DNA from: a virus
Length of the DNA: 43,113 nucleotides
Virus record (IMG/VR): IMGVR_UViG_3300027906_000041
Coordinates: 1 to 43,113 of that record
Direction: 5' to 3' (one strand)
Made by a program: the position numbers and the translations under genes. Of the stretch, positions 8,270 through 34,922 are shown piece after piece. How positions within the stretch are numbered: the stretch's first letter is position 1; every line of letters begins with the position of its first letter. Below the pieces are notes generated by a model that made no database searches, was not told the origin of the DNA, and saw only the letters and a program-made list of their open reading frames with translations.

Positions 8270-8277
8270 CATAAATA
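8270..8277 (+). promoter_or_regulatory. Late promoter element five bases before an ATG (CATAAATA)
   Basis: CATAAATA ends five bases before the ATG at 8283. T4 late transcripts start about six bases after this element, so a transcript from here would begin at or next to the ATG and lack a leader. No Shine-Dalgarno is present before that ATG. The bases TGACATAAATAC also occur at the other CATAAATA site (7788-7799). A chance AT-rich match in the end of gp4 is possible. Confidence 0.35.
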
Positions 8278-8282
8278 CATGT

Positions 8283-8867
8283 ATGGCAGGTAAACTATTT
8301 GACAGGTTAGAACGAGAGGCATTTCGTGGTGGTATCACTGCAAGGACGAAGAAGTCTATGCAATGGTTCAGAACTCGTGTGTCTCAGATGAGGACTCCTA
8401 GTCGTAAAGGTCTGATTACAGATCAACGACAAAGAGCAACACCAATTTTTGGTAGTATGGCAATGATGTTTTATGATCCAAAACATAAGAAGACATTACC
8501 TTATTACGATAGGTTTCCATTAGTGATTCCTTTCCAGAAGGCAAAAGATGGGTTCTTAGGGATGAATCTACACTATCTACCACACACAATGAGGGCACAA
8601 TTCCTAGATGCATTGTATGATACTGTTAATAATACCAAATATGATGATACAACTAAGATGATGATAAACTACAACCTTATTAAGTCCGTTGCACAAAAAC
8701 CTTTCTATAAAGCAACTGTAAAACATTATCTTACTAAACATATAAGAAGTAAGATTGCACTAGTCGATTCAGCAGACTGGGAAATTGCAATATTCTTACC
8801 AGTAGAACAATTTAAGAAAGCTGGTATTAAACAAGTATACTCAGATAGTAGGAAAGCAATGAGATGA
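8283..8867 (+). CDS. Virion protein, probably gp2-like DNA end protector
   Basis: 194 residues, basic at both ends, with a conserved-looking core FYDPKHKKTLPYYDRFPLV, then FLGMNLHYLPHTMRAQFLDA. I recall this pattern from marine T4-like phages, where it is annotated as a DNA end protector (gp2) or virion protein. T4 gene order (2 beside 4) agrees. gp2 binds the ends of packaged DNA and protects them from RecBCD. I cannot verify homology here. The stop overlaps the next ATG as ATGA. Confidence 0.5.
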   Translation: MAGKLFDRLEREAFRGGITARTKKSMQWFRTRVSQMRTPSRKGLITDQRQRATPIFGSMAMMFYDPKHKKTLPYYDRFPLVIPFQKAKDGFLGMNLHYLPHTMRAQFLDALYDTVNNTKYDDTTKMMINYNLIKSVAQKPFYKATVKHYLTKHIRSKIALVDSADWEIAIFLPVEQFKKAGIKQVYSDSRKAMR

Positions 8868-13567: not shown

Positions 13568-14464
13568 TTAAACATCATTTGCTAACTTCTCAAAGTAAGA
13601 CATTGATTCTGTCTCGGCCGAGTCGTTAACTACTGGTGTCACTGGTTCAGATGCAACAGGCATTGGTGATGGATGTGCAACATCAGAGTTGTCTTGACTA
13701 ACTGATTGTGCAGTTGCGGATCCAACAGCAAGTCCTAGAACTCTATCCAACTTCTCTTTCAATTCATCAAAAGATTTGAATTGATCTGGTGCAATTACAC
13801 CAGCAAGAGAGTGTTGAGAATTCCAAGTTGCTTCCAATTTTTCATCATCATCAAACAAAGGTCTTGGTGCAGTGAATTCAGACTTATCATAGTTCCAGAA
13901 TCCATCTACTTTCCTTACCTTAACTTTAAAGTTTGCACCTTCCCATAAGTCAAAAGGATTAACTGCTTGTTCATCCTCAAACTGAGGTTGCATTTTATCC
14001 TTTAACATCTCAAAGATTTTCTTACCGAAACGATAAAGCATAACTTTACCTTCGTTCTCTGGATGTGCTGGGTCGGAGACAACATAAACATTAGATACAT
14101 AATGTAATCTTCGTTTCTGTTTCCTTGCAATATCTTTATTTGCTTCGATTCCAGAGTTCCATAGTTCAGAGTTGTAATCTGAAACTGGGTCGGAATTTCC
14201 AAGAGTCGTTAAACTCTTTTCAATATACCAACCACCTGGCCCTTGAAATCCATGATCCCAATACTGAACCCAAGGCATGTCTTCACCATTAGGTGCAGGC
14301 AAGAACCTTAGTTCTGCATATCCATTACCAGATTTATCCATTTCTATTTTCCAGAAACGATCATCAGCAAATGATTTTTGGGTATTATTTCCACTAGAGG
14401 TTTCTAGTGATTTTTGCAGTGTATCGAACCCACTGCGGTTTCTTTTTAAGTCTTGAAAAGACAT
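13568..14464 (-). CDS. 32: Single-stranded DNA-binding protein gp32
   Basis: 298 residues with all the gp32 landmarks. They are an N-terminal basic cooperativity segment (LKRNRSGFDTL), the OB-fold core (YAELRFLPAP, DHGFQGPGGWYIE), SNVYVVSDPAHPENEGKV, YRFGKKIFEML and the distinctive PFDLWEGANFKVKVRKVDGF. An acidic C-terminal tail (SYFEKLANDV) recruits partners. T4 gp32 binds zinc through Cys77/87/90 and His64. The corresponding loop here (NSDPVSDYNSELWN) has no Cys at all, so it is zinc-free. GAGG precedes the ATG. Confidence 0.95.
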   Translation of the reverse strand: MSFQDLKRNRSGFDTLQKSLETSSGNNTQKSFADDRFWKIEMDKSGNGYAELRFLPAPNGEDMPWVQYWDHGFQGPGGWYIEKSLTTLGNSDPVSDYNSELWNSGIEANKDIARKQKRRLHYVSNVYVVSDPAHPENEGKVMLYRFGKKIFEMLKDKMQPQFEDEQAVNPFDLWEGANFKVKVRKVDGFWNYDKSEFTAPRPLFDDDEKLEATWNSQHSLAGVIAPDQFKSFDELKEKLDRVLGLAVGSATAQSVSQDNSDVAHPSPMPVASEPVTPVVNDSAETESMSYFEKLANDV

Positions 14465-15534: not shown

Positions 15535-16117
15535 TCCAAACCTTTAATAATATATCCGTAATCTTCTTTTCATCATAAGGTAAAAATGGTATTAATTTTT
15601 TCATTCTATTCTTCACTTCTGGCCAGACATAAGTTTCTTTTATAGAAACCCCATCAATAAATTTAAGTCTTGATTCAATGATTCCAAATGTGATGGGATT
15701 AATAGTTCTGGATAAAAGATTGCTGACAATAATGGGATGAGTAGTATTATCAGTGCAAAATAAATTATCCAAAACATCTGTAGATGCTTGTAAAGTTCTG
15801 CAATCTTGTTCAAAAGAATATGAAAGGGATTGCATATATTTTTTGTAAGTAGTGTAGTTATTTTCACAATCTTGTGTTAATAGGTCTCCAGCCCAATAGT
15901 CTTCAATGATAAAGTTTGCAATAAGAAAATCTTTGAGTTCCTTACCATGATTCTTTGCAAGTTTTCCAAAATGGAACTTGTCTGATCTCTTGAGATATGA
16001 ATCAAAATTTGTTTTAACCTTACCATTATATTTTACGAAGTCGTAATCAGAATTAAAGTGTAGTTTCAATCCTAGATATAATTCAAATGCATTATAACCT
16101 GTTCTTGAGTCTACCAA
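15527..16117 (-). CDS. 59: gp59 helicase loader
   Basis: 196 residues matching T4 gp59: [27 protein letters not shown], then [20 protein letters not shown] and a YWPEVKNR-type C-terminal segment. gp59 binds replication and recombination forks, contacts gp32 and loads the gp41 helicase. The start appears to be TTG at 16117, inside the last codons of the bS21 gene, with AAGG eight bases upstream. Its place upstream of gp32 on the same strand follows the T4 order 33-59-32. Confidence 0.85.
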
Positions 16118-16404
16118 TGGGATGACCTTTTCCTAGCCTCCCAAACTTCTTTCTCCAATCTTATTCTTCTTTCATTTAATCTTTTTCTTGCATTAATCTT
16201 CTTTTGTCTTTTCTCAGAAGGTTTAATATAATATTGACGATCACGAACCTCTTGGATGGTTCCAGCTCTTTCTACTTTCTTTTTGAATTGTCTAAGTAAT
16301 ACATCAAAAGGTGGTGGGCCTTTTGGTTTATCGAACTTCTTCTTCTTAAAGTTCTTATTCCTGTCGTATCCTTTTTGTTGTTGGGGTCTTCTATTAGGTT
16401 TCAT
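16111..16404 (-). CDS. rpsU: Ribosomal protein bS21
   Basis: Residues ~33-75 are the bS21 core: [16 protein letters not shown], then [18 protein letters not shown], then NARKR. Cellular bS21 is 60-75 residues; this one is 97, with an N-terminal basic extension ([20 protein letters not shown]) and a charged tail. bS21 binds the small subunit near the anti-Shine-Dalgarno end of 16S rRNA and affects initiation. Phage-encoded bS21 is known from pelagiphages and other phages. It starts by a TAATG overlap with an upstream 52-codon gene and overlaps gp59. Confidence 0.9.
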
Positions 16405-22719: not shown

Positions 22720-23022
22720 CTATAAAGGACTTGAAGGAAATCTACTTACTGGATTGGGAGCCGTACTCCCAGTATCCGTTTTCTTAACTACTGGAACTTC
22801 CCAGTCTACATTACAAGTGTAATCTAAGCCTGGAACTGTCCAAGTAGATGAACTCCTATTATATAGGAACTCAATTACTTCATCCCTAGTAGGATCAAGT
22901 AATTTCATAAGACCCATTACTGGATCATAATGTCTAATTTCTGCGATGCAATTAACACCATTACGAGTGTAAAATACACTTCGTTCAATGTCCGTTAGTC
23001 CTAATTTGTTTGTTGCACCCAT
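22720..23022 (-). CDS. Hypothetical 100-aa protein, likely late leaderless start
   Basis: MGATNKLGLTDIERSVFYTR, then CIAEIRHYDPVMGLMKLLDP and a Ser/Pro-rich tail. Function unknown. A minus-strand TATAAATA ends exactly five bases before the ATG and no Shine-Dalgarno is present. If that element is a promoter the transcript begins at the start codon. Confidence 0.6.
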   Translation of the reverse strand: MGATNKLGLTDIERSVFYTRNGVNCIAEIRHYDPVMGLMKLLDPTRDEVIEFLYNRSSSTWTVPGLDYTCNVDWEVPVVKKTDTGSTAPNPVSRFPSSPL

Positions 23023-23027
23023 ACTTC

Positions 23028-23035
23028 TATTTATA
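23028..23035 (-). promoter_or_regulatory. TATAAATA late element five bases before an ATG
   Basis: A perfect minus-strand TATAAATA with five bases to the ATG at 23022, the same spacing as CATAAATA before the gene at 8283. It would give a leaderless late mRNA for the 100-aa protein and the downstream genes. It overlaps nothing coding apart from the few bases after the stop region of the AT-hook gene. Confidence 0.4.
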
Positions 23036-27355: not shown

Positions 27356-27526
27356 TTATTTCCAACATTTATATCCAGTGCAGTCTTTTAGTTCAGACCC
27401 ACAATGAATACAAAAACCTTGTTCTTTTGCTTCTTGTTCTTCGAGTTCCATTTGATGTGCAGATTGACCCTCTGCCTTTACTTCTTCCTCAGTGAACTCA
27501 TTTTGATTTACTAGATATTTTTCCAT
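27356..27526 (-). CDS. Small zinc-ribbon protein, 56 aa
   Basis: MEKYLVNQNEFTEEEVKAEG, a Glu-rich helix, then CIHCGSELKDCTGYKC with Cys39, 42, 49 and 54 as a likely zinc site. TATAAT lies exactly six bases before the ATG, so the transcript should begin at or one base from the start codon. No Shine-Dalgarno is present. The first genes of phage early operons are often such small regulators; the target is unknown. Confidence 0.6.
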   Translation of the reverse strand: MEKYLVNQNEFTEEEVKAEGQSAHQMELEEQEAKEQGFCIHCGSELKDCTGYKCWK

Positions 27527-27532
27527 GATTCC

Positions 27533-27562
27533 ATTATACTATTTTATGTACCCCTGTGTCAA
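27533..27562 (-). promoter_or_regulatory. GGGTACAT-class promoter (minus), leaderless layout
   Basis: TTGACA (27557-27562), an 18-base spacer holding GGGTACAT, and TATAAT (27533-27538). Six bases separate the -10 box from the ATG at 27526. The -35 overlaps the stop codon of the 37-aa gene upstream. Confidence 0.75.
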
Positions 27563-27672
27563 ATTATACTCAAGGTCATTATCAATGCTAAGAATCCCAA
27601 GAATGATAATTGAATAATTCTAAATCCTAAAGGAATCTCTATCGTTGGTTTTATGCCCATTCGTAATTTCAT
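27559..27672 (-). CDS. Membrane micro-protein, 37 aa
   Basis: MKLRMGIKPTIEIPLGFRII, then QLSFLGFLALIMTLSII, a single TM peptide with a basic N-terminus. TATAAT lies six bases before the ATG, the same leaderless layout as the zinc-ribbon gene. The stop TGA overlaps the next promoter's -35. It is the most upstream minus-strand gene of the divergent early pair. Function unknown. Confidence 0.5.
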   Translation of the reverse strand: MKLRMGIKPTIEIPLGFRIIQLSFLGFLALIMTLSII

Positions 27673-27678
27673 GTACCT

Positions 27679-27708
27679 ATTATACTAAAATATGTACCCA
27701 TGTGTCAA
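27679..27708 (-). promoter_or_regulatory. GGGTACAT-class promoter (minus), leaderless layout
   Basis: TTGACA (27703-27708), an 18-base spacer with GGGTACAT, TATAAT (27679-27684), then six bases to the ATG at 27672. Its -35 is ten bases from that of the plus-strand promoter at 27719, so the two are back to back and could share a regulator. Confidence 0.75.
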
Positions 27709-27770: not shown

Positions 27771-28094
27771 ATGAAATTTAACGATTATATTGCACATGAG
27801 ATTAAACAAAATCTTACTGAATGCACAAAAGATGCAAAATTAGATCACCACTATTTTGCAACACCACTAAACCCAATTATTAAAAAAGTTGGTAAAGTGA
27901 ATTATGGTGAGTCCAACTATGCAGTTGGGCCATTGACAAAAACAATTTATGTCGAAGATACCATTGGTAATAGATATAAAGTTTCTGTTGAAGATTTGAA
28001 AAAAGTCAAAGGACATGGGTGGATCACTCATGAAGAAGCAAACAAGTTAAATCTTGTTTACAATCGAGAAGAAGGAGTACATGAAGTTGCTTAA
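27771..28094 (+). CDS. Hypothetical early 107-aa protein
   Basis: MKFNDYIAHEIKQNLTECTK, then a likely beta-rich core (VGPLTKTIYVEDTIGNRYKV) and HGWITHEEANKLNLVY. Soluble, function unknown. A strong ribosome site (AGGAG) and promoter lie just upstream. The next gene starts inside its last codons (28081), implying coupling. Confidence 0.65.
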   Translation: MKFNDYIAHEIKQNLTECTKDAKLDHHYFATPLNPIIKKVGKVNYGESNYAVGPLTKTIYVEDTIGNRYKVSVEDLKKVKGHGWITHEEANKLNLVYNREEGVHEVA

Positions 28095-29451: not shown

Positions 29452-30551
29452 AATTTAAATCCCTTGAAGGTATCATCTTCTATATCTTGTTTAATTCCAC
29501 CAATTACATATGACTCAATCTCAGTCTCTTGTGGTGCATTTTGTTGACCCTTAGAGGATAACCAATGTGTAGTCCAAGGCAATGGGTTATTCCTACTGGA
29601 TATATCATATATAGGGTTCAATCCTATCGCACGAAGTCTTTTGTTGGTTGTGTACTCCACATATTGACCTAATAACTCTGTAGATAATCCAATCATACTA
29701 CCATGCAAGAATAGGTATTCTGCCCATTCCTTTTCTTCCTGTGATGCATCCTTATACATTTGGTATACTTCATCTTCACAATCTTTCATAACCTTCAACA
29801 TGACTTTATTATTCTCAGTTTTTTGATATGCTTTTATCATGTGTTGAGTTATACCCAAGTGAACTGATTCATCTCTTGCAATCAAACTGATAATCTTTGC
29901 TGATCCTTCCATTAGTTTTAATTCACCAAATGCAAAAGTACATGCAAATGACACAAAGAATCTTAAACCTTCCAGTATGTTGATACTTATAAGAGTAAGA
30001 TAGAGTTTACGATGGAGTTCATAGTCGTCCTGTTTACGATTCTTGTTTAGTTTCCATCTATTTGCATACTCAATAAATTCATCATATCTTTTGGTCACTG
30101 ATTCTGCTCTTGCAAGAATCTTTTCATCACCTAGAATTGTATCAAATACTTTTGTTGGGTCTGAATATAAATTCTTAATCATATAGGTATATGATCTGGA
30201 GTGAATTGTTTCCATAAAATCCCATGCAATAATGCATGCTTCTAATTCTGGAATAGTCACAAATGGTAGTAATGCAATTGCAGGCCCTCTTCCTTGAACT
30301 GAGTCCAAAAGAGTTTGATACTTTAGATTACTAGTAAAGATATGTTTGTGTGCTTTACTTAGTTCATTGTAATCATTCCTATCTTTTTGGAGAGAAACTT
30401 CCTCTGGTCTCCAGAAGTACCCAAGTTGTCGTTGTGTAAGTTTGTCGAAAATCGGATATTTAAAATCGTCATATCGTTGGGTATTAAGTTCCTCTCCGAA
30501 AAAGATTGGATTCTTTAAATAATTTGTTTTTTCTCTATTGAATATGGTCAT
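29448..30551 (-). CDS. nrdB: Ribonucleotide reductase class Ia small subunit NrdB
   Basis: 367 residues. The diiron and radical sites match E. coli R2: Asp83 in LLDSVQG, Glu114 and His117 with the tyrosyl-radical Tyr121 in ETIHSRSY, a Glu in LEGLRFFVSFACTFAF, and RDESVHLG with the last Glu and His. It supplies the radical for the reduction of ribonucleotides to deoxyribonucleotides. The C-terminus ends FKGFKL, the tail that binds NrdA. It starts by ATGA overlap with the oxygenase-like gene. Confidence 0.95.
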   Translation of the reverse strand: MTIFNREKTNYLKNPIFFGEELNTQRYDDFKYPIFDKLTQRQLGYFWRPEEVSLQKDRNDYNELSKAHKHIFTSNLKYQTLLDSVQGRGPAIALLPFVTIPELEACIIAWDFMETIHSRSYTYMIKNLYSDPTKVFDTILGDEKILARAESVTKRYDEFIEYANRWKLNKNRKQDDYELHRKLYLTLISINILEGLRFFVSFACTFAFGELKLMEGSAKIISLIARDESVHLGITQHMIKAYQKTENNKVMLKVMKDCEDEVYQMYKDASQEEKEWAEYLFLHGSMIGLSTELLGQYVEYTTNKRLRAIGLNPIYDISSRNNPLPWTTHWLSSKGQQNAPQETEIESYVIGGIKQDIEDDTFKGFKL

Positions 30552-31564
30552 TCGTATTTCTCAAACCCTTTACCAATTGGGTTACATGTTATTGGATCAG
30601 TTAAAGCTGCATTTGCATAGTAGGGATATATTTTTGTCCTACTATTTTGAATAAATGAATTTGCTTTTTCTCTGAGTTTATCATTACCTTGACCAGTCCC
30701 ATGATAGATTGATGGTCTACCATCATATGCAAGTTGAGGCCAGTCTCTAAAGATTGGCCCATCTTGATGTAGGTAGTGGATAAAAATCTGTCTTGCACTA
30801 TTCCCTACTAATCTTTCTCTCCAATGAATTACATTTGGCCCTTGATAAAACATTGCATCGCCTGGATAGAGTTTTATAGATTTACATGAATCATCTCTTC
30901 TCTCAAAGGGCATTCCCATTGTGGAATCCCAAACCATATCATGGTGTCCACTAAGGTGACAGTAATCATTATCACCCCTTACCCAAATGTTCCATGGCTT
31001 ATTATCGTCTGTGTTGAATGAAATAGGAAAGGTTGCACTGACTTCACATGATGGTCTATCTGTATGACATAATAATCTGCTGTGTCGTTCATAGGTTCTA
31101 CCATATGAATAGGTTGGTACTAATCTAAAACCAAAGAGTTCTTCGATCCTCTTCTGGTACATCATAAGAATAGTTTCCCCATACTCTGGAAACGGCATAC
31201 CCTTACTTACCCAGTTATCTAAAAACTCACCCTTATCATCAAAATTATCAGTGATGATGTTCTTCTCTCTGAAATATTTCTTTCTATGTTCCATAAACTT
31301 GAACATATGATGTGTCCATTCTATGTGATCTTTATCAAAGAAATCTCTTGCAACATAATATCTATTTTTACAATATTGATACCCAGCTTCAGTTATCTCT
31401 GGGACATCTGGATTATCAATATTGTCTTGTGGATCAAATAAAACTTTCTTAGGGTCTTTTTCGTTATTAATCCATTCTTGAATTTCTTCTTCTCTTACAA
31501 CTTGATTAGCTTTCTTTATTATTCTTTCTTCTGGTGTTATTCTTCTTATTTCTAAATTATACAC
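30548..31564 (-). CDS. Putative 2OG-Fe(II) dioxygenase between nrdA and nrdB
   Basis: 338 residues. The facial triad is visible: His167-x-Asp169 in LLCHTDRPSCEVSATFPISF, and His247 in YPGDAMFYQGPNVIHWRE. The strand with Arg258 (SARQIFIHYLH) would bind 2-oxoglutarate. A long N-terminal helical domain (1-140) precedes it. An ORF of this kind between nrdA and nrdB is known to me from T4-like marine phages. The co-operonic position suggests a link to nucleotide or protein oxidation, not proven. Confidence 0.6.
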   Translation of the reverse strand: MYNLEIRRITPEERIIKKANQVVREEEIQEWINNEKDPKKVLFDPQDNIDNPDVPEITEAGYQYCKNRYYVARDFFDKDHIEWTHHMFKFMEHRKKYFREKNIITDNFDDKGEFLDNWVSKGMPFPEYGETILMMYQKRIEELFGFRLVPTYSYGRTYERHSRLLCHTDRPSCEVSATFPISFNTDDNKPWNIWVRGDNDYCHLSGHHDMVWDSTMGMPFERRDDSCKSIKLYPGDAMFYQGPNVIHWRERLVGNSARQIFIHYLHQDGPIFRDWPQLAYDGRPSIYHGTGQGNDKLREKANSFIQNSRTKIYPYYANAALTDPITCNPIGKGFEKYE

Positions 31565-33852
31565 GACTCACATTCCTCATCATCTAAATCTTCCCCTTGA
31601 GGAAGTGGTTCATCTGGAACCTCAACGATATCTTCTGTCTTACTATCATATGTGTTCTGATAATAAGAGGTCTTCCATCCATATTTATAGGTATTTAACA
31701 TGTCTGTTGCCATGACTGAAATAGGTACTTCATTATTCTCAAAGTGTTCTGGATTATATGACCAATTTCCACTAATAGATTGATCAAAGAATTTCTGCAT
31801 TACTGCAACCACCTTGATGTATCCATCATTGTTTGGCATGTCCCACAATAATGTATAAAAGTTTTGTAACATTGTATACGAGGGAACTATTTGTTTTAAC
31901 GGGCCCTTCTTACTCTTCTTAATTGATAGAAAGTCTCTAGGTGGTTCTATCCCATTAGTCTCGTTAGAAACGACACTAGAGGACTCTGAGGGCATCTGAG
32001 CAGTTAGAGTTGAGTGTCTTAGACCATGTACCTTAATACATGTTCTTAATTTTTCCCAATCTAATTTAAGATCATTAGGAGTAATATCATCCACTTCCTT
32101 TTTATAATGATCTATGGGTAATAGTCCCTGTGCATACTTGGTTCTATGATAATAATCACATGCACCTTTCTCTAGTGCAAGTTGATTTGATGCAACTAGT
32201 AAGTGGTATTGAAATGATTCAGTTAATTCATGAACCAATCTATGTGCTTCTGAGTCGTCATACTTAACCTTGTTCTTTGCAAGGAAATGTGCAAGACCAA
32301 TGTATCCTATTCCTAAACTTCTTCTTGCAAGTGTTGATTTCTCTGCAGCTGGTACTGGGTAATTTTGATAATCAATTAGTTCTTCTAATCCCCTAACTGC
32401 AATATCACATAAGTCTGGTAGGTCTGATACTTTTAAAGTACCAACATTGATTGCAGATAGAATACAAAGTGCAATCTCACCTTCACCATCGTCTGGATGA
32501 TCAATAGGAACAGTTGGTAATGTAATCTCTTGACATAGATTACTCATGGTAATCTTGTCTGTAAATGAACTATGTGAATTTGTATGATCTATATTCATGA
32601 TATAGATTCTACCTGTCTCTGCTCTTTCCTTTAACATATCCATGAATAAGGTTCTTGCAGATATCTTTGTTTTGGGAATAGAGTATGCTCTTTCATACTT
32701 CTCATAGAGTTCATCAAACTCTGGAGTTCCAAATGCATCGAACAGGCCTGGGACATTATGTGGTGAGAATAAACTTATCTCTTCATCATTTAAGAATCTT
32801 TTATAGAACAGTTCACTAATCTGGATAGAGTAATCTAATTTCCTTACTCTATTATCTTCCGTTCCTTTGTTATTCTTGAGAACAATAATGTCTTCAATTT
32901 CTTGATGCCAGATTGGGAAATGGACTGTAGCACTCCCACCGCGTACTCCATTCTGAGTGCAACAGCGGACTGTGCTCTCGAATTTCTTGAGAAAAGGGAT
33001 AACACCAGTGTGTTGGACTTCTCCACCACGAATCTTAGAGTTGATACCACGAATTCTACCAGCATTAATACCAATTCCAGCCCGTTGAGCAACATAACGA
33101 CCAATAGCCATGTCACTAGAAAAAATACTTGATAAACTGTCATCACTATCCACGAGAACACAGCTTGCAAACTGTCTAATGGGTGTGCGTACACCTGCCA
33201 TGATAGGCGTTGGAATGTTGATTTTAAATTGCGAAATTGCATCATAATACCTCTTTACATATTGTAATCTTGTTTCATTTGGGTAGTTCCTAAACAATAC
33301 TGCACTGATTAACATGTACATGTATTGTGGACTCTCAAATAGTTTTCCAGTAGATCGATCTTGAACAAGATACTTATCTACCACTTGTCTTAAACCAGCA
33401 TAAGAGAATAGAAAATCTCTTTTGTGATTCATATAACTGTTAAGAGTATCCCACTCCTTTTCGTTATAATATTCTATCAACTTTTTATCATAGACATCAA
33501 TCTCAATATTTCTTGTAACAATATCTTTGATGTGTGGATAGATTTTACTATCTTTCCATTTGGTATTGAATACATCTTTACGAATCGAAAATAATAGCAA
33601 CCTAGATGCAACATACTGATAGTTTGGTGTATCCAAACAGATTAAGTCTGATGCAGATTTGATTAATGTTTGTTGAATTTCGTCTGTTGTGATTCCATCA
33701 TAAAATGATAATGAAGAATTCATTTCCACTTGAGATGCACTAACTCCATTTATTCCTTGAGTTGCAGCCTCTACCATCTTGTGGATTTTCTCTATCTTTA
33801 GTGCTTCTTTTTCCCCATTCCTTTTAACAATACTTATTCCATTTTGACTCAC
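31552..33852 (-). CDS. nrdA: Ribonucleotide reductase class Ia large subunit NrdA
   Basis: 766 residues. An N-terminal ATP-cone (ISIVKRNGEKEALKIEKIHK) regulates activity. The catalytic Cys residues are present: QFASCVLVD, the radical site in NLCQEI (Asn, Cys, Glu) and ALCILSAINVG. VRGGSATVHFPIW and a C-terminal CESC redox pair complete the set. It reduces ribonucleotides with NrdB and glutaredoxin. The start is GTG at 33852, overlapping the primase stop (TAGTG). The ORF overlaps the next gene by 13 bases. Confidence 0.95.
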   Translation of the reverse strand: MSQNGISIVKRNGEKEALKIEKIHKMVEAATQGINGVSASQVEMNSSLSFYDGITTDEIQQTLIKSASDLICLDTPNYQYVASRLLLFSIRKDVFNTKWKDSKIYPHIKDIVTRNIEIDVYDKKLIEYYNEKEWDTLNSYMNHKRDFLFSYAGLRQVVDKYLVQDRSTGKLFESPQYMYMLISAVLFRNYPNETRLQYVKRYYDAISQFKINIPTPIMAGVRTPIRQFASCVLVDSDDSLSSIFSSDMAIGRYVAQRAGIGINAGRIRGINSKIRGGEVQHTGVIPFLKKFESTVRCCTQNGVRGGSATVHFPIWHQEIEDIIVLKNNKGTEDNRVRKLDYSIQISELFYKRFLNDEEISLFSPHNVPGLFDAFGTPEFDELYEKYERAYSIPKTKISARTLFMDMLKERAETGRIYIMNIDHTNSHSSFTDKITMSNLCQEITLPTVPIDHPDDGEGEIALCILSAINVGTLKVSDLPDLCDIAVRGLEELIDYQNYPVPAAEKSTLARRSLGIGYIGLAHFLAKNKVKYDDSEAHRLVHELTESFQYHLLVASNQLALEKGACDYYHRTKYAQGLLPIDHYKKEVDDITPNDLKLDWEKLRTCIKVHGLRHSTLTAQMPSESSSVVSNETNGIEPPRDFLSIKKSKKGPLKQIVPSYTMLQNFYTLLWDMPNNDGYIKVVAVMQKFFDQSISGNWSYNPEHFENNEVPISVMATDMLNTYKYGWKTSYYQNTYDSKTEDIVEVPDEPLPQGEDLDDEECESCII

Positions 33853-34835
33853 TATACCTTACTCCAATTTTTGACTGCATGAATTAGTGATAATCCTTGC
33901 AAGGTGTTCTTATTAATAATATCAACTGGGTTCTTACCCATCAATACCATATCGTTAATATCTTTCTCTTCGATAGTTGTAGGCCAAACACAAACTTTGA
34001 ACCCCAAGTCTCCTATCTGCAACATCTTCTTAATGATCTCTTTATTACGAGGTTCATTATCAAATACAACAGTAGTATTTGTTAAGGGTATTTCGTTTGT
34101 TATTTTGGAAAAATCAGAACCAGCAACAGCAATACAATTGGGTATGAACAGTGAATCAATTGGGCCTTCGACCACAAATAATGGTTTATTGAAGTCAACT
34201 TTATTAAGGTTGTAAATGAATGGTTTTTCATCGTCAAATCGTAAGGTTAAATATCTAAGTTCCGAGTTGTTTAATGCACGACCAGTGACCCCTACTAAAT
34301 TACCTTGACGATCTTTGAAGGGTAGTACAAGTCTTGGGTCATTTCCTAAAACTCTCCTACTATACTTATAATCCAAAGAACTTAGACTCTGTGCTTGTTC
34401 CACAAAATACATATCATCCCATGTTTCCTCTGGGATACTCCTTCTCATAAGGTATGTTAATGCAAGATCAGAGTCCTTTGCTTTGGTAAATCCAGATAAT
34501 GGGTTGGGTTTAAACTTTGGTTTAAAGTCTATTTCAACCTTTTCTTTCTTAGATTTCTCTTTTCTCCCAAACTTCTCCATGACCCACTGTTTATATAACA
34601 TGGAATCTTGATCTTTTAAGAATTTACCTACCCCTGTACTGTGACCGCAGTTGTGGCATTTAAAGACATAGGAATCCTTATACACGAAATGATAACCTCG
34701 TGCTTTAAGTTTATCTTTAGAAGAATCCCCACAATAAGGGCATGAATGGTTTAAGAGTTTATCACTCTTCCACTTGGAATTCTTAAACCTACTGCTAATA
34801 AGCTTAAGATACTTTTTATCAATCCACAACGACAT
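33852..34835 (-). CDS. 61: DNA primase gp61
   Basis: 327 residues. A zinc-binding ribbon has Cys32/35 (HSCPYCGDS) and Cys60/63 (FKCHNCGHS). The central helical part leads to a TOPRIM domain with Glu223 and Asp227 (FVVEGPIDSLF) and Asp259 (VVFDNEP). This is the T4 gp61 primase, which makes RNA primers with the gp41 helicase. A TTGACA-N16-TATACT promoter ends six bases before the ATG, with no Shine-Dalgarno; the start matches the conserved N-terminus of related gp61 proteins (MSLxIDKKYL). Confidence 0.9.
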   Translation of the reverse strand: MSLWIDKKYLKLISSRFKNSKWKSDKLLNHSCPYCGDSSKDKLKARGYHFVYKDSYVFKCHNCGHSTGVGKFLKDQDSMLYKQWVMEKFGRKEKSKKEKVEIDFKPKFKPNPLSGFTKAKDSDLALTYLMRRSIPEETWDDMYFVEQAQSLSSLDYKYSRRVLGNDPRLVLPFKDRQGNLVGVTGRALNNSELRYLTLRFDDEKPFIYNLNKVDFNKPLFVVEGPIDSLFIPNCIAVAGSDFSKITNEIPLTNTTVVFDNEPRNKEIIKKMLQIGDLGFKVCVWPTTIEEKDINDMVLMGKNPVDIINKNTLQGLSLIHAVKNWSKV

Positions 34836-34841
34836 ATATCT

Positions 34842-34869
34842 AGTATACTACGAATCGTGGATTTGTCAA
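34842..34869 (-). promoter_or_regulatory. Sigma70-type promoter, leaderless layout (TTGACA-N16-TATACT)
   Basis: On the minus strand, TTGACA (34864-34869), 16 bases, then TATACT (34842-34847), with six bases to the primase ATG at 34835. Transcription would start on or just before the start codon. The -35, -10 and spacing match the gp33 promoter at 16952, including the GATTC and TAGTATACTAG context. Confidence 0.7.
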
Positions 34870-34922
34870 GTAAAATATTCTACACTCTCACCTGTAGAAA
34901 ACTAAGACATTGGTTTTTGGGT

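Follow-up and report, generated by a model that had tools for sequence, protein, structure and literature searches.

Promoter boxes at a fixed distance from ATG predict a leaderless class of early and late mRNAs in T4-like phages akin to those infecting marine heterotrophs

The window analysed here, the 43,113-base IMG/VR virus record IMGVR_UViG_3300027906_000041, has T4-like gene content (primase, RNR, a gp2-like end protector, gp32, a helicase loader and tail genes), and promoter boxes lie only five or six bases before the ATG of five of its genes, raising the question of whether these genes are transcribed into mRNAs without a leader. An earlier note had placed TATAAT or TATACT 6 nt before the ATG at 27526, 27672 and 34835, and a late box 5 nt before the ATG at 8283 and 23022, and both statements matched the DNA letter for letter (Table 1; the gap in nucleotides between the end of a promoter box and ATG is called d below). 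Inspection of the three early sites also revealed a perfect TTGACA -35 hexamer at each of them, absent from that note, with a spacer of 16 to 18 nt. The layouts are TTGACA-N18-TATAAT-GGAATC-ATG for 27526, TTGACA-N18-TATAAT-AGGTAC-ATG for 27672 and TTGACA-N16-TATACT-AGATAT-ATG for 34835, all on the minus strand, while the late sites read CATAAATA-CATGT-ATG (8283, plus strand) and TATAAATA-GAAGT-ATG (23022, minus strand). The early sites met the definition of a sigma70 promoter (TTGACA and TATAAT at 16-18 nt spacing), and the late sites that of a T4-type late promoter in having a TATAAATA box and no -35 conservation.

Table 1. Features of the window that bear on predicted leaderless starts
Feature	Position	Strand	Support or remark
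Late promoter box CATAAATA, 5 bases before ATG	8270..8277	+	letter check
gp2-like DNA end protector, predicted leaderless	8283..8867	+	phrog_429, E 2e-53
Phage ribosomal protein bS21	16111..16404	-	PF01165, E 1.5e-11; has an SD of its own (AAGGAAG); possibly a partner in leaderless translation
Conserved 100-aa protein, unknown function, predicted leaderless	22720..23022	-	orthologs to 53% identity
Late promoter box TATAAATA, 5 bases before ATG	23028..23035	-	letter check
56-aa CxxC-containing ORF, predicted leaderless	27356..27526	-	
-10 TATAAT, 6 bases before ATG 27526	27533..27538	-	
GGTACAT spacer box (27526 promoter), clade-specific early-promoter element	27546..27552	-	
-35 TTGACA for 27526	27557..27562	-	
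37-aa ORF of uncertain coding status, predicted leaderless	27559..27672	-	
-10 TATAAT, 6 bases before ATG 27672	27679..27684	-	
GGTACAT spacer box (27672 promoter)	27692..27698	-	
-35 TTGACA for 27672	27703..27708	-	
DNA primase (gp61-like), predicted leaderless	33852..34835	-	phrog_47 DNA primase, E 1e-74; first gene of primase-nrdA run
-10 hexamer TATACT, 6 bases before ATG	34842..34847	-	letter check
-35 hexamer TTGACA, 16-nt spacer	34864..34869	-	letter check and relatives
Hairpin resembling a terminator (TTCTACA/TGTAGAA) and followed by a T-rich tail, immediately upstream of primase promoter	34878..34899	-	

The five genes had further been described as lacking a Shine-Dalgarno (SD) sequence in a phage that may use both modes of initiation. 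This was borne out at 34835, 8283 and 23022, where the anti-SD duplex energies were +0.4, +0.7 and 0.0 kcal/mol, respectively, and most other phage genes do carry SD sites (-2 to -9 kcal/mol for most other genes of the window). For 27526 and 27672 the description needs qualification, as their GGA and AGG triplets score at about -3; these triplets, however, sit inside the discriminator, where they are too near the ATG and precede the predicted +1, so that the absence of a usable SD expected of a leaderless gene still holds. No in-frame upstream start was present at any of the five genes. By itself, the window provides just two late and three sigma70 cases, and the statistical force comes from relatives, among them G001, a longer contig (129.6 kb) of the same phage type that encodes identical 8283 and 23022 proteins.

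We counted the distance from each NATAAATA box to the next ATG opening an ORF of at least 40 codons in eight related genomes and contigs, comprising the window clade, the pelagiphages HTVC008M and Mosig, and Melnitz. In this pooled set, 41 boxes were found at d=5, none at d=4 and 3 at d=6 (d=6-7 being rare), against about 3.1 per spacing at 13-45. Sigma70-like pairs showed a corresponding peak, with 21 at d=6 and 7 at d=7 versus 3.2 per spacing. Both peaks conform to what is expected of leaderless genes, namely, a -10 box about 12 bp before the start at a frequency above chance, and so does the preference for AUG, since all 41 late d=5 cases start with ATG and none with GTG or TTG. The late d=5 excess was significant in single genomes (P 9e-9 for G002, 2e-11 for HTVC008M and 2e-5 for Mosig) and weak in Melnitz (3 cases, P 0.02). 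No such peak was seen in KVP40, Syn9, S-WAM2 or phiM12, and S-PM2 had a single case. Clade loci totalling 1,078 kb held 38 distinct N-termini with late d=5 and 15 with sigma70 d=6, whereas the next-highest spacing had 8 in each class.

These data indicated that the spacing between promoter and ATG is not due to chance. Chance placement, or wrongly assigned start codons, might be suspected in an AT-rich genome in which two of the five ORFs are shorter than 60 aa, but the N-termini are conserved from M1 and the spacing statistics speak against it; this explanation, to which we give practically no credence, is already contradicted for the late class and the primase and is not excluded for 27672. 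It is no more plausible that the AT-rich elements act in the mRNA as translational enhancers instead of promoters. AT-rich, unstructured leaders do aid initiation in general, but when the 21 permutations of ATAAATA were counted at the same spacing, the true motif occurred 22 times in the clade and 16 times in the pelagiphages and the best of the others only 3 and 5 times, and the sigma70 cases carry matched -35 boxes.

The predicted leaderless feature is not confined to the five genes but reaches far past them, as judged from the arrangements in related phages. The late form also precedes genes for the portal (at 6 nt), tail tube, a gp25-like wedge protein and a cytidyltransferase in relatives, and the sigma70 form precedes DNA polymerase in G001, G002, G005 and C48C1. 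For gp2, the box is kept as (T/C)ATAAATA-N5-ATG in relatives although the DNA further upstream differs, and the orthologs in HTVC008M, Mosig and Melnitz have the exact late arrangement with d=5. Those gp2 relatives without the box adjoin the upstream gene, and most have AGGA or AAGAG; the SD contrast between relatives with and without the promoter was weak (P 0.03). The late box of 23022 was also found in the L163, L164, L165, G002 and G006 orthologs of the 100-aa protein, which itself has no PHROG or Pfam match. The two small ORFs present a weaker leaderless case: relatives of the 56-aa product were limited to one near-full-length match (48% over residues 4-55), which lacks the promoter, and one short match of 18 residues, and the 37-aa ORF was without PHROG or Pfam match.

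The start of the primase was said to be supported by a conserved N-terminus, and indeed M1 and S2 are invariant in 10 aligned primases with identity down to 39%. A -10 box was found at the matching place in relatives, as TATTAT in the 70-72% ones and TATAAT in the 38-40% ones. Among 66 distinct primase upstream regions, 24 had the promoter at d=6-8, 14 at d=10-12 and 14 at d=23-32, the rest having a weak one or none. The median SD energy was +0.1 for orthologs at d=6-8 versus -3.1 for those at d=23-32 (Mann-Whitney P 4e-5); that is, SD is missing where the promoter abuts the ATG and tends to occur where there is a leader. The intermediate group leaves room for polymerase starting a few bases earlier and giving leaders that are very short (1-5 nt) but not absent, since d=10-12 would imply leaders of 4-6 nt. 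As a general account of these genes we nevertheless regard this as very unlikely, given that d=4 is empty and d=6-7 rare in the late class and that the base preceding ATG fits a start on A (see below). The choice of start site can shift by 1-2 nt, which would give leaders of 0-2 nt.

In several other marine T4-like contigs (L021, L024, L025, L028, L029, L033 and L036), a terminator-like hairpin comes after a sigma70 promoter and its T-run ends right at the primase ATG, and some of these hairpins hold AGGAGG in the stem, so attenuation of the primase is possible.

Next, we considered where transcription would begin. The T4 late box spans -13 to -6, with its first T at -13 (PMC2988020), and a gap of 5 nt would then put +1 on the A of ATG. 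Homologs of the late sigma factor gp55, which a T4-type late promoter also calls for, are encoded outside the 43-kb window, in G001 (183 aa, E 2e-18) and G002 (186 aa, E 5e-23). The base at -1 to ATG is a pyrimidine in 38 of the 41 late cases versus about 52% in other genes (binomial P 2e-9 against 52% in a 36-gene subset), an excess that fits an initiator with the start on A. Furthermore, intrinsic terminators stand directly upstream of 7 of the 41 late cases compared with 37 of 605 control starts (P 0.016), and where they do, the leaderless start is the likely source of mRNA.

Those terminators also bear on the possibility that, real as the promoters may be, translation relies on longer read-through transcripts of upstream operons, the ATG being used through coupling or an SD-independent route from a leader. 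Operons house most phage genes, and read-through mRNA is possible at gp2, which starts 13 nt past gp4 on the same strand. Yet the regions upstream of 23022 and 34835 offer no SD either, the hairpin preceding the primase promoter would stop read-through into that gene, and a spacing fixed to a single base is not expected if the longer transcripts were the ones translated. We consider read-through improbable as the main explanation.

From the observed geometry, its conservation, the missing SD sequences and the gp55 homologs, we infer with high confidence that these are true promoters with +1 at the A of ATG, and that they yield leaderless mRNAs alongside the SD genes. The case is strong for 34835, 8283 and 23022. 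The earlier proposal of leaderless starts at two promoter classes is thus supported by comparative DNA data, and it remains an inference because no transcript 5' ends have been mapped. Under this leaderless reading, the host sigma70 RNA polymerase would read the TTGACA/TATAAT class, which includes the primase and both small ORFs as well as the DNA polymerase of relatives, and the phage late sigma gp55 would read the NATAAATA class, to which gp2 and the 100-aa protein belong, together with the tail tube, gp25-like wedge and other genes of relatives. Ribosomes would then start at the 5'-terminal AUG without SD pairing, most other phage genes keeping their SD. Whether initiation uses 70S or 30S is likewise only inferred; in Escherichia coli, leaderless initiation is favoured by 70S ribosomes (PMC9031893).

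The gene for gp32 (13568-14464, minus strand) has GATAAATA 13 nt before its ATG, and a GAGG lying mostly upstream of the predicted +1; its late transcript would carry an 8-nt leader without SD.

A second element, GGTACAT, is common to the spacers of early promoters, which read TTGAC-N4/5-GGTACAT-N6/7-TATAAT. In the window it occurs at 27771 (+), 27672 (-), 27526 (-) and about 20720 (-), and such promoters numbered 7 in G001, 7 in G002 and 7 in three other clade contigs; none was found in T4, the cyanophages or HTVC008M. The box serves leaderless and leadered genes alike and is possibly the site of a phage activator or repressor.

Ribosomal protein bS21 is encoded by the phages that show the late peak (the window, G001, G002, G006, G007, HTVC008M and Mosig), and also by Melnitz with its weak peak. 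G005, a 61-kb fragment, has the peak and no bS21 match, and the correlation is uninformative in contig fragments, from which truncation may have removed the gene. T4, KVP40, phiM12, C48C1 and the cyanophages tested lack bS21. The bS21 of HTVC008M enters E. coli ribosomes, and GFP synthesis falls to about 5% (PMC6375957). That phage bS21 retunes host ribosomes from SD mRNAs toward leaderless phage mRNAs is a speculative idea which we hold to be unlikely, resting as it does only on correlation within related lineages.

Leaderlessness as a general trait of SAR11 was also evaluated and rejected: SAR11 genomes gave only a slight signal, with a weak excess at d=7 (3 + 3 cases in two 400-kb stretches) and TATAAT-N6-ATG about 1.26-fold over reversed controls. 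The bS21 of the window had no match in 20 SAR11 genomes. Between nrdA and nrdB of the RNR run lies a ferrochelatase-like gene (phrog_2954; 30548-31564, minus strand) without Pfam match, and a scan of genome contigs for ferrochelatase to assign a host found nothing.

Compared with known systems, the late class shares with the T4 late promoters (gp55/gp33/gp45) the 8-bp TATAAATA box, the lack of a -35 and a gp55 homolog; however, none of 65 NATAAATA boxes in T4 lies 2-9 nt before ATG, whereas the box of the marine clade is locked at 5 nt. Lambda cI and bacterial leaderless genes likewise have a -10 about 12 bp before the start, no SD and AUG, but these are as a rule lone phage genes or genes dispersed over a host genome (PMC3160421, PMC9031893). 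In contrast, the marine phages would possess a lineage-wide leaderless class with two polymerase specificities, including a T4-type late sigma; a class of this kind, shared by T4-like phages with relatives that infect marine heterotrophs, best explains the comparative data. HTVC008M and Mosig (SAR11) and Melnitz (OM43) have the late spacing peak (weak in Melnitz), a predicted leaderless gp2 and phage bS21, but leaderlessness is not described in the papers found. Late promoters were reported as undetectable in pelagimyophages (PMC7029224). Cyanophages S-PM2 and Syn9 have the NATAAATA late motif (PMC2984593) but no 5-nt spacing peak. The papers on Melnitz, pelagimyophages and cyanophages list late promoters or look for them, and the excerpts consulted do not note a fixed gap. 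Both leaderless mRNAs and T4-type late promoters are well known separately. A search of the literature, incomplete in coverage and hence no proof of priority, turned up no account of leaderless transcription in T4-like phages and none in which the two are systematically combined across an abundant group of marine phages. If the inference is true, a set of core genes for replication and the virion bypasses the Shine-Dalgarno step in these phages, which gives a concrete test of why aquatic phages often carry bS21, and NATAAATA-N5-ATG becomes a practical rule for finding late promoters and correct starts where promoter searches failed.

Four further contigs, G036-G039 (those of L519-L522), encode two bS21 genes and have no T4-type portal match, yet NATAAATA-N5-ATG is present in them, with 7 occurrences in G037 versus 1 for the control.
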